Shown here one piece after another: positions 49,858-56,908 of a stretch of DNA of 64,000 bases (position 1 is the stretch's first letter; each line of letters opens with the position of its first letter). Below the pieces are notes generated by a model, which was not told the DNA's origin, ran no database searches, and saw nothing but the letters and a program-made list of their open reading frames with translations. Source of the DNA: Nitrospira sp. (lineage in GTDB: Bacteria; Nitrospirota; Nitrospiria; Nitrospirales; Nitrospiraceae); NCBI GenBank assembly GCA_016788885.1, contig JAEURX010000043.1, positions 1 to 64,000 on the forward strand, read 5' to 3'. Made by a program: the position numbers and the translations under genes.

Positions 49858-52800
49858 CTAGGCGTCGCCCGGATGCCTGACCCGACGCCAGACTCCCGAC
49901 GGCATGTAGCGGTACCAACTTCCATCTTCAGGGTCCAGCGCGGCCAGATGGACCCATTCGTTGTGGTAGAAATGCTGCAAAATTTCATGCCGGGCGATGA
50001 GTTTTTCTATACGGGCCCGCGAGGCCTCTACCAGCGTCAGGAGACGCATGGGTTCATGGTAGGGGACCTCATCATTCATGACGGTCTGCCAGGCCAGACC
50101 GAGCCGGAGGTCGCTCCAGGGACCGGCCATGATGCCGATGCGTCCGACGACGTTGTGATAGATCTTACTCCCGCTTCCATAGACCTCGTTGTCGACGGCC
50201 GAGAAATAATGTTCCATGTTGATCCACTGCGCCACCACTTGCGGCGCAGTCAGGAGCACTTCCAGCCACCGGTCGGTCGGATCCTCCCGATAGTCGTAGG
50301 ATTGCAAGAAGACACGCCCGCCGAGATTCAGCCCCTTCGTCAATTCGCGGCGGCCGATGATAAAGGTCGTGTTGCCGGAGAGGCCCCATTCCGGTCGTAC
50401 CTGGCTCCAATCCGCACTGCGACCCGCCACATGCGCCGAGGCTTCGTTGAGGGCCAGCACCACACCGACGTCGGGGAAGCGTGTACAGCGCTCCTGACTG
50501 GTGAGTTGCGCGGCTTCGCGCAAATCGTCGTACAGGCGCGCGACATCTTTACGGTGGGTCGGGGGGGCGTCTTCGAGATCGAAGAGCTGCACCTCGTCGG
50601 TCGTGGTATCGACCTGCCCGGCAAGGAAGTGCGTGTCGGAGGGAATATCGATGCCGCGTTTCGCCAGCCGCTCGCGCACCGGTGGCCGATTGGCCATGGC
50701 GGCCAAGGCGCGCGCGTTCGGCTTCCCCTCGTTCCCGCCGCAGGCGCCGCAATCCAGCGCTGATTCGAAGGGATTGTTCTCCGTCGTGCTGCCGTGGGCG
50801 CAGAAGAGCACCAATCGCGCAAAATTCCGCACCAGTCCCATCATGCGCAAGGCGGTCTCGACGGTCAGCACCTGCTCTTCGAGCGTGAAGCCGGTACGGG
50901 TGATCCGCTCCTTCTGACGCGAAGCCGCGCGGCGGTTAATGCGGTAGTGCTTGCGTAAATCATTGAGGAACGCAGCCAGCTGCTCGGAGGACAGCTCGAC
51001 TGCCTTGGCGGCATCGGTCAGGTATGGGTCCACCGGGGCGTCGTCATCCAGCGCCCGTCGTCGCAGGGCCTCCACGAACTCGGCTTCGACCCGGGAGCCA
51101 TGCAGCCCGAGTTGGTCGCGCAAGGCTTTCCAGATTAAGGCACGCTGCTCGGAGACCACCATTTCCTCGGTTTCGGCCGGGGCCAGTTTATCCACGGTCA
51201 GGATGGTTGCGATCGGTGGGACGAACAATCGTCGCACCCAGGTCGTCAGGCGTTTGTACAGTGCGGGCACCAGCGTCTTGGCCATCATAGGAAGGGCATA
51301 GAACCAGCCGAGCGACTCCACCATCACGTAGGGAGTGACCACGTTTTCTTTCAGATCGTGCAACAAGGTGTGTCCGGCGTGGACGAGTTTGGCACGCGAC
51401 TGGTGTTTAGAGATGTAATGATCCAGATAGCTCCGCGGAATCTCGCGCACTTCGTTCTTGGCGCGCATGATCACCGGGAATTGCTCGGTCTCATGTTCCT
51501 TGCCCCAGGCCCGGTAACGGATAAAGACGGCGAAGAAGCCGGCGAAACCGTAGGTGTCGTTGGCGCCCGTCGATTCGAGGTGGCGGCGGAACGGCTCGGA
51601 CCGTACGTCGATGCAAAAAACCGTTTGCGAATGGGGCCGGACTGGTGGCCGGTGATCAGGGGCAGCCGGCTGCGGTTTGGTCGGCGCGCGCTGCAGCATG
51701 CCGAAGAGATGCTCGTGGTAGCCGGCCTCGAACGCCGTCAGCCAGACCGGGCCATGTGCCGATTCCGGAAACGTGTCGATCCAGTCCAGAAGTTGTCGTA
51801 GGGCCGGCAGCGGGGCGTCCATCAAGAGCGTCGGCACGAGTTCCAGCGCCTGGGCGAGCGTCAACAGGCGCCGAGCCATCCCCCGTTGCGCGGCTCGCTC
51901 ACGCCGTGGGCCATACTCGATCTGGTAGTGATGGGTGAGCTGCTCCCATTCCCGCGCCAGCAGGGACGAGTTCTGCGGAGGCCCTGTTTGGGCGTGGAGT
52001 CGGGCGACCCGAGCGGCGTACGACGCCGGCAGCCGGCCGGCGACCCATTCCTTCCGCATGTAATACGCGTGGGGCTGTTGGTCCATGAAGCGCAGGATGG
52101 CGCGATAGGTGCCATCGATGCCCAACTCGCGCTGACAGACCTGCTGGACCAGTTCCCGCACATACCACAGCCGCACGGCCAGGAACTTCACCAGACCAAC
52201 GGGATAGGCCTGCTGCCAGGCGTAGTCATTTTCTTCGGCCCGCCATTTGATGAAACCGGCCCATCCGGGCAGGGCCGCGAGCTGGAGGGACAGGTAGTCC
52301 TGTCTGAACTCCAGCGGGATCTCGAGTGCTTCGAGACACTCGAGCACGGTGTCTTCCGGATGCTCCGGGAGGGCGGCAATTTTCCGGCGGCTATCGTCGA
52401 TGCCGCAGGTCATCCATTCTTTCCCGGCGGCGTGTTTCCATGCGGCATAGAGGCCCTGGCGCCGTTCGGGCATCGGCCAGGTGGCGTGGCCCTCGTCCAG
52501 GAATGCCTCGCACCATTTCACGAGTTCCCCGTTGATTTGGGCGACGATCGTGGACCCCACCGTCCGGTCGCACCAGCTCGTCAGTGTCAGATCCCGTCCG
52601 AGGGTGCTCACATCCTCACGGATGGTCGCGGCCATGAGGTCCTGCACGTTCGGCGTCGAGAAGGAGACGAGGCGTTCGGCCAGCGCGTCGATGGGCTCTT
52701 CGTCCGGCGCGCGTTCCATGAGCCGGTCGAGCGGTTCGTCGGTCGGATGGGAGAGGCCGTGGGTCAGGCAGGCCCGCAGGACTTCGCGATGAGCAATGCG

Positions 52801-53124
52801 GCAGGATCCGAGGTCGACTTCTTCAGGACGGGCCTGAGCGACCAGGGCGTCGTCGACGTGCCGGACCAGAATGCGTCCCGACTTCAAGTACCGGCGGTAC
52901 ATGTCGCCGGAGAGGTAGCCGTTCCCGCCCAAAAACTGCTTGCCGCGGCGAACCGTCTCGGTGAAGGGCAAATACTCCAAGCTGTGTAACGGATTGTGGT
53001 GGACGAACGTTCGCATGGGCCAGTACTGCGCGATGACCTCGCTGGCCAATCTGATCGTGCCCCGCAATTCCATGCGGCGGGCTTCAAGATCGGTCTGGTC
53101 TGGTGAGGAGATCAGCGGATCCAT
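49858..53124 (-). CDS. dabA: DabA, DUF2309 inorganic-carbon (CO2-hydrating) transporter subunit
   Basis: 1088 residues. The zinc site of DabA is intact: FCIDVRSEPFRRH (Cys504, Asp506) and CAHGSTT...SALDCGACGG (His777, Cys792), with the C-x-D and 15-residue H-C spacing of Halothiobacillus DabA. The protein acts as a beta-carbonic-anhydrase-like module energised by DabB, accumulating bicarbonate. It overlaps the preceding membrane-protein gene by 13 bases and begins with an AGGGGA ribosome site. Confidence 0.95.
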   Translation of the reverse strand: MDPLISSPDQTDLEARRMELRGTIRLASEVIAQYWPMRTFVHHNPLHSLEYLPFTETVRRGKQFLGGNGYLSGDMYRRYLKSGRILVRHVDDALVAQARPEEVDLGSCRIAHREVLRACLTHGLSHPTDEPLDRLMERAPDEEPIDALAERLVSFSTPNVQDLMAATIREDVSTLGRDLTLTSWCDRTVGSTIVAQINGELVKWCEAFLDEGHATWPMPERRQGLYAAWKHAAGKEWMTCGIDDSRRKIAALPEHPEDTVLECLEALEIPLEFRQDYLSLQLAALPGWAGFIKWRAEENDYAWQQAYPVGLVKFLAVRLWYVRELVQQVCQRELGIDGTYRAILRFMDQQPHAYYMRKEWVAGRLPASYAARVARLHAQTGPPQNSSLLAREWEQLTHHYQIEYGPRRERAAQRGMARRLLTLAQALELVPTLLMDAPLPALRQLLDWIDTFPESAHGPVWLTAFEAGYHEHLFGMLQRAPTKPQPAAPDHRPPVRPHSQTVFCIDVRSEPFRRHLESTGANDTYGFAGFFAVFIRYRAWGKEHETEQFPVIMRAKNEVREIPRSYLDHYISKHQSRAKLVHAGHTLLHDLKENVVTPYVMVESLGWFYALPMMAKTLVPALYKRLTTWVRRLFVPPIATILTVDKLAPAETEEMVVSEQRALIWKALRDQLGLHGSRVEAEFVEALRRRALDDDAPVDPYLTDAAKAVELSSEQLAAFLNDLRKHYRINRRAASRQKERITRTGFTLEEQVLTVETALRMMGLVRNFARLVLFCAHGSTTENNPFESALDCGACGGNEGKPNARALAAMANRPPVRERLAKRGIDIPSDTHFLAGQVDTTTDEVQLFDLEDAPPTHRKDVARLYDDLREAAQLTSQERCTRFPDVGVVLALNEASAHVAGRSADWSQVRPEWGLSGNTTFIIGRRELTKGLNLGGRVFLQSYDYREDPTDRWLEVLLTAPQVVAQWINMEHYFSAVDNEVYGSGSKIYHNVVGRIGIMAGPWSDLRLGLAWQTVMNDEVPYHEPMRLLTLVEASRARIEKLIARHEILQHFYHNEWVHLAALDPEDGSWYRYMPSGVWRRVRHPGDA

Positions 53125-54416
53125 GTGTTCCCCTGTGAGGCAGTCGACACGGGAGGCGTCGGCGCGTTCGATTCGAACAACCGGGAAGGCGCGGTCCCGA
53201 GCACTAACAACAAGAAGAGCAACAGCACAAGCGACATGAACTCGGTCTGGCGGAGGTCTTCGTAACGGACTTCCAGGCGCGCTCGACCGAACACGAGTTG
53301 TTGCACCAGTTCAATCTGATACCACGAGGCCGTGAGCCACACGAGCATGATGATCGCGAAGGAGGCGGACGGCGTAAAGGTCGGCAGGAGCAGCATGCTC
53401 AAGAAGCCGGAAAATACGCCGAACGGCGGCATGCCCAGGGCTGCGAGCGCGAGCAGTGCGAGCAGCGTGCTGAAACGGGGCATGGGATAGGCCATGCCGC
53501 CGAGTGCTCGAAGATCGACGTCGCCGTACCGGGCTCGGATCGCGAACCAGGCCAGCAGCAGGCCGCTGGTGGCGAGCCCCACGGCGCTGAGATAGATCGT
53601 GGCCGGAATCGGCGCGGTTCCCGTATCGGCGACATACCACCAGAGCATGCCGAAGAAGGCCAGCGCGGCATAGGCCAGGCGCGGCAACGGTCGCGACTGA
53701 ATCAATGCCCGCAGCGACCCGTAGACGGCACTCGCGAGGGCCAAAATCCCCAGGGTGCGGAGCACCGTGCCGGAGAGGGTCGGGAGAATGACCTGGAGAT
53801 CGTGAAACCCGACCATGGGTAACAGCACGGCCAGGAACGCGGGGAGATTGCCCGGCAAGCCGCCCACCGTGGCGACGAAGCCGCTGTGGACCGGCAGCAG
53901 CGGGAAGAGCGTGGCGCAAGCCACCAGCGTGGCAATGTTCGAGGCCGGAGTGGGAAGCGTCAGGGCCAGGAGCGTCGCGATGAGGCCCAACGAGAATGAC
54001 GAGAGTCCCCGCCAGGCGTCCGGTGCCGGATCGGGTTGATGCCGGTATAACAAAGCGGACAGGAGGATGAGCAACAGGAGCAGCAGGATGGCATGGGCGA
54101 GCCCCTGAGTGGTCAGGGTGCCCAGCCCCAGGCCCAGCAGAATGAGGGTCATGGGCCAGGCTGCACTTGTGTCGCGGTGCAGGGGCTGGCCGAGCAGCGA
54201 CAGGCAGGCCGCCAGCGGCAGCAGGCAGAGAAAGGGCACGCCCGAGGCGGGTTCGCCCAGAACCAGAGCCGAGCCGATCACGGAGCAGAGGCTCGCCACA
54301 GTGGTCACCAGGGCAACCGTTTTCATCCGTGGAAGAGAGGCCTTCAAGAAAACGGAGAGCCCCGCGCCAAGGATCGGCAGAGCGAGCAGCAGCCACGGTG
54401 CCATCCAGGCTCGCAT
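53112..54416 (-). CDS. NuoL/M/N-like membrane protein between dabB and dabA
   Basis: 434 residues from the ATG at 54416 (GTG at 54419 equally possible; GGAGG upstream). About a dozen hydrophobic helices. It shows proton-conducting-transporter features (YAALAFFGMLWWYVADTG, LALAALGMPPFGVFSGF, the latter resembling the PPxxGF region of NuoM/N), but the characteristic Glu/Lys motifs are weak. It is a second, smaller PF00361-like subunit of the carbon transporter; classical DAB systems have only DabB. Overlap with dabA suggests coupling. Confidence 0.75.
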   Translation of the reverse strand: MRAWMAPWLLLALPILGAGLSVFLKASLPRMKTVALVTTVASLCSVIGSALVLGEPASGVPFLCLLPLAACLSLLGQPLHRDTSAAWPMTLILLGLGLGTLTTQGLAHAILLLLLLILLSALLYRHQPDPAPDAWRGLSSFSLGLIATLLALTLPTPASNIATLVACATLFPLLPVHSGFVATVGGLPGNLPAFLAVLLPMVGFHDLQVILPTLSGTVLRTLGILALASAVYGSLRALIQSRPLPRLAYAALAFFGMLWWYVADTGTAPIPATIYLSAVGLATSGLLLAWFAIRARYGDVDLRALGGMAYPMPRFSTLLALLALAALGMPPFGVFSGFLSMLLLPTFTPSASFAIIMLVWLTASWYQIELVQQLVFGRARLEVRYEDLRQTEFMSLVLLLFLLLVLGTAPSRLFESNAPTPPVSTASQGNTWIR

Positions 54417-54477
54417 CACAACGGGCCTCCGACGACTACCCTCACACCCTGTCCGGGCGTGTTTGACAGGTGAGGGG

Positions 54478-56172
54478 TCACGACAGGCGTTTCTCCAGGC
54501 GATGGGCGACGCGAGTCACGAGGCGGCCGATATGTAGGTAGGCCTGATCAAGGTAGAGCCGGTTCGTGCACACGACATACAGTCGAACGAGCAAGGCCTC
54601 GATCCAGTGGGGAATGGTGATCGTACGGCCATGCGCGTGGGCATAGAGATAGACCCAGCTCAGCACCGTCATCAGGGTGGTGCCGACGACCAAGCTGTCG
54701 AAGAGTCGCCCGGGAAGTGCCGCCGCCTTAAAGTAGGAGGCCACCTCTTCGGGGTTCGGGTACAAGAAGCGGGTGAAGCTCTCCACCGCAAACAGATAGG
54801 TGAAGACCACGATGACCAGGGTCACCAGCATGGCGGCAGAGACTTTCCACGAAGCCACGGCACGGATGCGCGTCAGCGAGAGGATGGCCTGCGACGAGGT
54901 GACCCAGATGAAAAACAGGAAAATGACGGTGCCTTGCGATTCGAGCAGCGGAATTCTCAGGACACCGTGAGTGACCAGCAGGATGATCAGCGGCAACACC
55001 AACGTGGTGAAGAATCCGGTCGACCAAGTCAGGTTGGAGAACTCGCTCTCTTCCGCCTCCCGATCGAGGTGGGGAAACGACGGCTCCTGGCGGGCCTTAT
55101 GGATGACATTGCCGCAATTGAGGAACACGGTGCCTTTGAACAGGCCATGTGCGATCAGATGGAACACGGCGAGGGAAAAGGCGCCCAGGCCGCATTCCAT
55201 GATCATGTAGCCCATCTGCCCGATGGTCGAAAAGCCCAGCGTTTTCTTGATGTCGTTTTGAGTCAACATCATGGTGGCGCCGAGGATGGCCGTCAGCATG
55301 CCGATGATGAAGACCACGTGTAACGTTGATGGACTCAGCCCGTACAGCGGGGCGAGCCGGTTGAGCAGAAATCCTCCGGCATTGATGATGCCCGCGTGTA
55401 ACAGGGCGTGGATCGGCGTCGGGGCGTAGAGGGAGCGGGGCAGCCAGGTGTGAATCGGGAACTGGGCCGACTTGCCCATTGCGCCGCCGAAAATAAGCAA
55501 CGTCACGGCGGTCACGCCGTTCATCTCCCAACCCAGTTCGGGCCAGATGAAGAGCGTGATGGGCGTCTCCGCGGCGCGTGTAAACAAGGTCTGAAACTCG
55601 AACGTGCCGTACAACGAATAGGCTAGGACAATGCCTGCGAGGAAGGCGGCATCGCTGAGCCGCAACATGGTGAACGTATTGGCGGCGCCGGAGAGGGTGG
55701 CGGCGTGGCCGTGATTGTGGGCCAGAAGAAACAGGAGCCAGGAGAGAATTTGCCAGAAGATGAACAGCATCACCAGATTCGCGCTGGAAACCATGCAGAG
55801 CAGGACCGCGGTCGTGAGGCCCAACATGCCCAGATATCGCCGATACCCGCGATCCTGATACATGTACCCCATGGAATAGCGATAAATGAGCGTGGTTACG
55901 CCGGTGATGAGGACCATCATGACGGCACTGAGCCGGTCAATGTAGAAGCCGATCGGGAAGGCGAGATTGGAGATGGCCGCCGGATCGTACCACTGAATAG
56001 TGACCGGCCCACCGGAGGTCACCAGCGCGAGGGTGAGGAGGGCACCCAAGAACGACGCGACGATCGGGAGGAGCCCGGCCCGCGCATTCTGGTCCTGTTC
56101 GGCGCGGTCGCCGGTCATCACGATGAAGGCCGTCAGCAACGGCAACAACGGGACGAGGACGAGGAAAGACAT
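54478..56172 (-). CDS. dabB: DabB-like NuoL-type proton-conducting subunit
   Basis: 564 residues, multi-TM. Proton-channel motifs of NuoL are clear: LSWLLFLLAHNHGHAATLSGA, GKSAQFPIHTWLPRSLYAPTPIHALLHAGIINAGGFLLNRL, and TLGFSTIGQMGYMIMECGLG. In DAB systems DabB lets protons drive bicarbonate accumulation by DabA. GAGGG precedes the ATG. First gene of the operon; a structured leader with a terminator lies directly upstream. Confidence 0.92.
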   Translation of the reverse strand: MSFLVLVPLLPLLTAFIVMTGDRAEQDQNARAGLLPIVASFLGALLTLALVTSGGPVTIQWYDPAAISNLAFPIGFYIDRLSAVMMVLITGVTTLIYRYSMGYMYQDRGYRRYLGMLGLTTAVLLCMVSSANLVMLFIFWQILSWLLFLLAHNHGHAATLSGAANTFTMLRLSDAAFLAGIVLAYSLYGTFEFQTLFTRAAETPITLFIWPELGWEMNGVTAVTLLIFGGAMGKSAQFPIHTWLPRSLYAPTPIHALLHAGIINAGGFLLNRLAPLYGLSPSTLHVVFIIGMLTAILGATMMLTQNDIKKTLGFSTIGQMGYMIMECGLGAFSLAVFHLIAHGLFKGTVFLNCGNVIHKARQEPSFPHLDREAEESEFSNLTWSTGFFTTLVLPLIILLVTHGVLRIPLLESQGTVIFLFFIWVTSSQAILSLTRIRAVASWKVSAAMLVTLVIVVFTYLFAVESFTRFLYPNPEEVASYFKAAALPGRLFDSLVVGTTLMTVLSWVYLYAHAHGRTITIPHWIEALLVRLYVVCTNRLYLDQAYLHIGRLVTRVAHRLEKRLS

Positions 56173-56403
56173 GCCGACCCTCTATGATCCATGAAAAGAA
56201 AAAGGCCAGCCGACGGTCCTTGCAACAAGGAACCAACGACTGGCCTGCACTGTCCCCGGCCTTTCCCAACAGGGAAACACCGGCAAGACCCTACTGCCTG
56301 TCTCATTGCATGACTGGTGTGGGTCCGGGCCGCGCACGAATCACGACCTTTCGTCGGCACCACCGGAAAACTCCGGTAGATGTAGCCGTGCATCCCCCGT
56401 AAT
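56173..56403 (-). ncRNA. Structured 5' leader of the dab operon (candidate riboswitch or attenuator)
   Basis: On the minus strand this 230-base leader folds into several hairpins visible by eye: ACCGGA-GTTT-TCCGGT nested inside CGGC/GCCG (about 56356-56388), a CGAC-GAAA-GGTCG GNRA hairpin (about 56343-56355), TTTCCC-TGTT-GGGAAA (about 56262-56277) and the final terminator at 56193-56246. No known riboswitch class was recognised. The gap from 56404 to 56545 holds the divergent promoters of dabB and the DUF2294 gene. Confidence 0.55.
56193..56246 (-). terminator. Intrinsic terminator in the dab leader
   Basis: Minus-strand AGGCCAG ... CTGGCCT (56246-56240 and 56209-56203), enclosing a second complementary stretch (GGTTCCTTG / CAAGGACC), followed at once by TTTTTCTTTTC. 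This is a classic stem plus U-tract, 21 bases before the dabB start. In a leader position this makes attenuation likely. Confidence 0.7.
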
Positions 56404-56545
56404 TGCAAGCGAAAAGTCGGCGAACCCGGAGGGTGAGCGTGGCCCTGTTCGAGGCGGGGCGGAGGGGGGTTGGAGTGGGGAAGCAGCCGCGACTATAATC
56501 CGTCCGACCATCGCGCAGACTCACACGAAAAGGATAGCAGGAACC

Positions 56546-56908
56546 GTGGCCAGTAAGGGTGAAAAAGAAGCCGCCGTTCGGACGGCGATCATCAAATTTG
56601 AGCAGGAATTCCTGGGCCGCGGTCCGGACGAGGTGCGGGTGTTCATTGTGCGCGATATGCTCGTCGTGCGCTTGAAGGGAGTGCTGACGCCGGCCGAGCG
56701 GCAATTGGCCAAGACGGCGGAAGGCATTGATATGGTGAAACGCCTCCGCCAGAACCTGATCGCACAAGGGCGGGAACGCCTGTGCGAACAAGTCGCGGAA
56801 CTGATCGGAGCCAAGATCACGGCGCTCTTCACGGATATCGATACCGTCGTGGGTGAGCGCATTTTTGTCTTTACGTTGGAGTCCGACCTGGAAGCCAACT
56901 TCCGGTGA
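56546..56908 (+). CDS. DUF2294-family protein
   Basis: 120 residues from the GTG at 56546, behind AGCAGGAACC. EKEAAVRTAIIKFEQEFLGRGPDEVRVFIVRDMLVVRLKGVLTPAERQLAKTAEGIDMVKRLR matches DUF2294, a small alpha/beta protein seen beside carbon-uptake and other genes, of unknown function. It diverges from the dab operon, and selO follows it after 46 bases on the same strand. Confidence 0.82.
   Translation: MASKGEKEAAVRTAIIKFEQEFLGRGPDEVRVFIVRDMLVVRLKGVLTPAERQLAKTAEGIDMVKRLRQNLIAQGRERLCEQVAELIGAKITALFTDIDTVVGERIFVFTLESDLEANFR

Follow-up and report, generated by a model that had tools for sequence, protein, structure and literature searches.

Na+ and Li+ riboswitch classes and the alkaline-responsive alx leader are found before cation/proton transport genes. 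Terminator-type riboswitches for metabolites and ions carry a conserved core with conserved loop nucleotides, lie in the 5' leaders of functionally related operons, and have a P1 helix that overlaps the terminator 5' arm through its 3' strand. Members of the order Nitrospirales are major nitrite oxidizers, with complete ammonia oxidizers among them; to our knowledge, how these bacteria sense and secure inorganic carbon is not well understood. The SulP family includes BicA-type bicarbonate transporters. According to two reports, DabA/DabB (MpsAB) provide the cell with dissolved inorganic carbon, and this system and carbonic anhydrase can functionally replace each other (PMC6689103, PMC8552792).

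We analyzed a 64,000-nt stretch of a Nitrospira sp. contig (the window), in which a leader RNA of about 175–180 nt precedes dabB, with a conserved promoter at its 5' side and an intrinsic terminator ending 21 bases short of the gene (Table 1). From predicted folds and comparison across genomes, this leader very probably attenuates transcription in cis and would control inorganic-carbon supply genes in Nitrospirales; the likeliest form of such an attenuator is a riboswitch belonging to no Rfam class. It resembles terminator-type riboswitches in its conserved core and loop nucleotides, in its placement before functionally related operons, and in the overlap between the P1 3' strand and the terminator 5' arm. 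By contrast with them, it matches no Rfam 15 family and is confined to one order. Searches of Rfam 15 at gathering and permissive thresholds returned no relevant match to the element, in agreement with a first-pass annotation of this DNA that had recognized no known riboswitch class. Like the Na+ and Li+ riboswitches and the alx leader, the Nitrospirales element precedes cation/proton transport genes, but it differs from these RNAs in lacking an Rfam match and in its gene set, which comprises DAB, SulP, and LCIB carbonic anhydrase genes, with Mrp only in the DAB context. The literature that we searched contained no description of the element, nor of any bicarbonate/CO2 riboswitch; in a comparative study of Nitrospirales from 2025, the only riboswitches mentioned are those for guanidine, and mnh/mrp genes are noted (PMC12342949).

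Table 1. Positions in the window of the leader elements and of the neighboring genes.
Feature	Position	Strand	Details
Sigma-70-like promoter	56379..56408	-	-35 TTGCAA 56408-56403; -10 TACATC 56384-56379; spacer 18
Leader RNA	56193..56372	-	Covariance model R1 match 56193-56382; 89% mean column identity (23 distinct genus sequences); fold z -4.1
5' hairpin P0	56319..56363	-	GUGG-UG-CCG / CGG-AC-CCAC with internal loop; RNAalifold consensus
Antiterminator P1 (predicted)	56238..56302	-	GAC-A-GGC 56302-56296 pairs with GCC-A-GUC 56244-56238 (terminator 5' arm)
Core	56247..56294	-	GUAGGG 56294-56289; CAGUGC 56252-56247; helix P2 between; apical TTTCCC/GGGAAA hairpin
Intrinsic terminator	56194..56246	-	Stem AGGCCAGUCG...CGGCUGGCCU 56246-56203; T-run 56203-56194
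dabB (NuoL/MrpA-type subunit)	54478..56172	-	Pfam Proton_antipo_M/N; proposed first gene controlled
NuoM/N-like subunit, between dabB and dabA	53112..54419	-	NCBIfam NuoM-type matches below cut-off
dabA	49858..53124	-	Pfam PF10070 DabA, E 4e-264
mpsC (DUF2294), divergent neighbor, not in RNA	56507..56908 (start approximate)	+	Pfam PF10057 MpsC, E 2e-36

A generic sigma-70 scan left the window promoter below threshold and scored the copies weakly above shuffles, so the promoter call rests on the alignment within the genus, where the promoter is conserved and the flanking DNA is not; its spacer is 17 in many relatives. From the position of this promoter, the RNA probably starts near 56372 and not at 56403, where the first-pass annotation had begun the leader. 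That annotation had also listed several hairpins. Of these, TTTCCC/GGGAAA (56277-56262) was confirmed and is conserved throughout the genus, whereas the ACCGGA/TCCGGT and GNRA (GAAA) hairpins, although present in the window sequence, each occur in only 1 of the 23 distinct genus sequences; ACCGGA/TCCGGT extends over the -10 region and the start site, and therefore probably does not lie wholly within the transcript. The conserved parts are instead the 5' hairpin (GTGG..CCAC, 56363-56319), the core, and the terminator. The terminator that the annotation had placed just 5' of dabB on the minus strand proved to be a G+C-rich hairpin followed by a T-run, as in intrinsic terminators, and between it and the dabB ATG (56172) lies a Shine-Dalgarno-like AGAGGG (56183-56178). 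The fold of the 231-nt leader was better than that of 200 out of 200 shuffles (z -4.2), and for the 175-nt transcript (z -4.1) 0 out of 200 shuffles were as good.

Orthologs of dabB with 80–100% identity occurred in 27 genomes of the genus, the window's own included. The leader was common to all 27 and absent from the two genus genomes without a close dabB; the covariance model R1 recovered exactly the 27 and not the other two. Promoter, 5' hairpin, core, and terminator all aligned, while DNA further upstream of the promoter gave no alignment among the genus genomes. The T-run lies about 20–30 nt from the ATG in the genus, a gap into which a separate promoter would not fit. Only 1 out of 48 pairs covaried within the genus, whose sequences are too uniform to be informative, and we therefore extended the analysis to the whole order.

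R1 also matched outside the genus, in further genera and families of the order, and most of these matches preceded dabB; in another family they lay between dabA and an mrp operon whose first gene is mnhE, and in one genome a match preceded a gene for an LCIB-type carbonic anhydrase (L066; PF18599, E 6e-53). Scanning 84,980 species genomes with the sequence pattern GTAGGG...CAGTRCNNGCCA...TGGCYTTTT yielded 58 exact matches, all in records titled as Nitrospirota except one, which is labeled Nitrosospira (isolate NOB2) and, judged by length and position, is a contig of the genus genome G002. The next same-strand gene was related to inorganic carbon at all 58 loci (dabB at 40, mnhE of an mrp operon at 15, dabA at 2, and LCIB carbonic anhydrase at 1). 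With a covariance model of the core, R2, used for the order-wide search, we found the motif in 187 out of 236 Nitrospirales genomes, and the phylum sample outside the order gave one marginal match (L192, E=0.008). Among 46 further R2 copies, 2 were set aside, and for the others the next gene was dabA in 12, mnhE in 8, dabB in 8, a gene for a SulP permease in 15 (one representative matched PF00916), and a gene for an unknown 797-aa protein in 1. The weak matches that we rejected were L192 and L174, the latter a lone terminator after a CBS-domain gene. Because both the pattern and the covariance models demand a terminator, copies with other expression platforms escape these searches. By analogy with known family members, the SulP permeases linked to the RNA are putative inorganic-carbon transporters.

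The RNA is not confined to one operon but stands before several types of inorganic-carbon gene, and its linkage in cis to this one physiological theme recurs for dabB, dabA, mrp, SulP, and LCIB carbonic anhydrase. In one genome (L173), SulP, dabA, and mnhE were each preceded by a copy, which makes three, and L178 together with L073 had the same set; wherever several copies occurred, there was one per transcription unit. The shared strand, the adjacency, the 20–30-nt gap in the genus, the varied operon arrangements, and the single copy per transcription unit all argue that the RNA acts in cis, and attenuation in cis is highly likely. The first-pass annotation had raised the alternative of a long leader from the DUF2294 (MpsC) side; we reject it, because the RNA lies on the dabB strand and is also present where mpsC is not adjacent. 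With its own promoter and terminator, a length of about 175 nt, and very high conservation in the genus, the RNA could also be read as a free-standing small RNA gene acting in trans, its adjacency to dabB incidental. This is very improbable for an RNA that is invariably on the same strand and directly 5' of inorganic-carbon genes across different operon arrangements, that can be present more than once in a genome with a separate operon behind every copy, and whose terminator ends 20–30 nt from the start codon in the genus. Nor is it 6S RNA, which is similar in length: the Nitrospirales element forms no closed rod with a central bubble, and the best match to RF00013 in the genome lies elsewhere (contig C47:25031-25105, L032) and not at the leader. 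That 6S candidate is a partial match, at 44.9 bits against a cut-off of 46.4.

Across the order, the core follows the consensus GGC-N(1-2)-GUAGGG-helix-CAGURC-NN-GCC-A, in which GCC is the terminator 5' arm; the genus form is GGC-N-GUAGGG / CAGUGC-(AG)-GCC. We measured covariation in an alignment of 41 distinct non-genus sequences (A3) made with MAFFT and no structural guidance. The core helix, the GUA/URC pairs, and the terminator were paired in 94% of cells, as against 22–44% in slid controls; 11 out of 20 pairs had changed on both sides (71 such cells), and 0 out of 500 shuffles did as well. For the core helix alone, two-sided changes affected 8 out of 12 pairs; the terminator helix also covaried across the order, and RNAalifold recovered the same helices. 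Covariation among related leaders, which the first-pass annotation had proposed to look for, is thus strong in core helix and terminator at the level of the order, and the element has the conserved, covarying structured domain of a riboswitch. GUAGGG and CAGU-C were invariant in the 41 sequences, partly by construction, being in the search pattern; copies found only with R2 mostly retained GUAGGG/CAGURC, although some deviated, for instance to GTAAG or GTGGG. A GG located 4–5 nt 5' of GTAGGG, which the pattern did not require, was present in 41 out of 41. The 5' domain is variable, and missing or unrecognizable in many copies: the P0-type GGNGCC...GGANCC pattern was found in 38 out of 104 order-wide copies, and P0 is not universal.

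Conservation is highest in a small internal loop of two strands, carried on a helix that varies, an arrangement shared with many leaders that bind proteins. A regulatory protein might bind this loop and decide between antiterminator and terminator, the RNA itself sensing no small ligand; such protein-mediated antitermination would produce an identical layout, and the confinement of the element to one order is consistent with it. We nevertheless consider a protein-operated switch unlikely, as no candidate regulator gene was seen beside the RNA in all contexts and the linked genes nearly all encode transport proteins or carbonic anhydrase. A riboswitch that senses a ligand directly is, in our judgment, somewhat probable.

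When the window transcript was folded without the 3' arm of the terminator, GCC paired with the upstream GGC to form P1. In such truncated transcripts, the mean P1 probability was 0.78 over 75 copies, with 59 above 0.5, and it was 0.12 when the upstream part was shuffled. With full-length sequences, the terminator had a probability of 0.99 (75 copies). As P1 and the terminator share the GCC, the two folds are predicted to exclude each other, the terminated form being the stabler end state, and the expression platform is likewise predicted to exclude the conserved domain. P1 is extended in the genus (GAC-A-GGC / GCC-A-GUC), but it is unable to display covariation because its 3' strand doubles as a terminator arm; the GGC is missing in two SulP-linked copies (L204 and L208). 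A genus-specific antiterminator spotted by eye, GGTGCCGACGA/TCGTTGGTTCC, is not retained in relatives.

Almost every full-length copy is most stable with the terminator formed, which would also suit an ordinary constitutive leader, whose terminator merely dampens expression and whose structure is kept for RNA stability. We regard this as very improbable, because constitutive termination needs neither the conserved unpaired or non-canonical GUAGGG and CAGURC nor a similarly conserved GGC that can pair with the terminator arm. Attenuation by a leader peptide, through ribosome stalling on a short open reading frame, has a similar alternative-hairpin layout in principle, but among the 23 genus sequences no start codon opened a conserved reading frame, the best being a GTG in 15 out of 23; this explanation is hardly credible. 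The layout of attenuation or a riboswitch that the first-pass annotation had suggested is borne out by the conserved promoter, the covarying core, the terminator with its exclusive partner, and the presence of the RNA before several kinds of inorganic-carbon gene.

We infer the following sequence of events for a riboswitch in this leader. Transcription would initiate just 5' of the P0 hairpin, and the nascent RNA would fold the core helix with its conserved internal loop, GUAGGG / CAGURC. If GCC then paired with the conserved GGC before GUAGGG, P1 would form as an antiterminator and RNA polymerase would continue into dabB or its counterpart; if GCC paired instead with the later GGC, the terminator, the stabler full-length state, would result. 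A signal that stabilizes the core together with P1 would turn the genes on. In this scheme the exact start site, the occurrence of switching in vivo, the sense in which the genes respond, and a signal that reports inorganic-carbon status are all deduced.

As the linked genes share the theme of inorganic-carbon supply, the RNA most likely responds to inorganic-carbon status or to something coupled to it, such as pH, Na+, or a metabolite. An inorganic-carbon-linked signal, on which the first-pass annotation had speculated, fits the gene set. Direct sensing of bicarbonate/CO2, or of an immediate proxy such as pH, is a tentative and rather doubtful proposal. Ligand binding coupled to P1 stabilization predicts an ON switch, yet uptake genes are expected to be induced when carbon is low. 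This is in tension with bicarbonate as the ligand, and a signal of scarcity may take its place. With its links to DAB, SulP, Mrp, and LCIB-type genes, the conserved candidate RNA switch outlines a possible carbon-supply regulon together with its candidate sensor. Were the ligand bicarbonate/CO2, it would be a riboswitch ligand absent from the literature searched, and the switch could be useful in the engineering of carbon-concentrating systems; the class would then govern a carbonic anhydrase as well as carbon-concentrating transporters in nitrite-oxidizing and comammox bacteria.

The genome of the window holds a second DAB operon (L213:1690-6607, contig C15), with dabB about 47% and dabA about 46% identical to those of the first. 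This second locus has no copy of the RNA, which suggests that the genome has two differently regulated DAB systems. The NuoM/N-like protein encoded between dabB and dabA in the window gave no Pfam match; it is conserved across the order and is a possible third DAB subunit. Tandem duplicated dabB genes lie downstream of the RNA in L074, L132, L137, and L186. In L186, it is the second copy that precedes the tandem dabB genes, and the copy at 1021-1113 precedes the 797-aa gene, which has no Pfam match and lies beside a second mpsC. The leaders upstream of the f3 dabA (L071:122-303, L070:546-727, and L072 at about 600-680) have a similar terminator, AAGCCAAYCG..CGGTTGGCTTTTTT, without GUAGGG/CAGURC, and by their sequence may be a degenerate or related element. 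At the far end of the window, positions 1-147 on the minus strand contain a tmRNA (RF00023) cut by the window edge.
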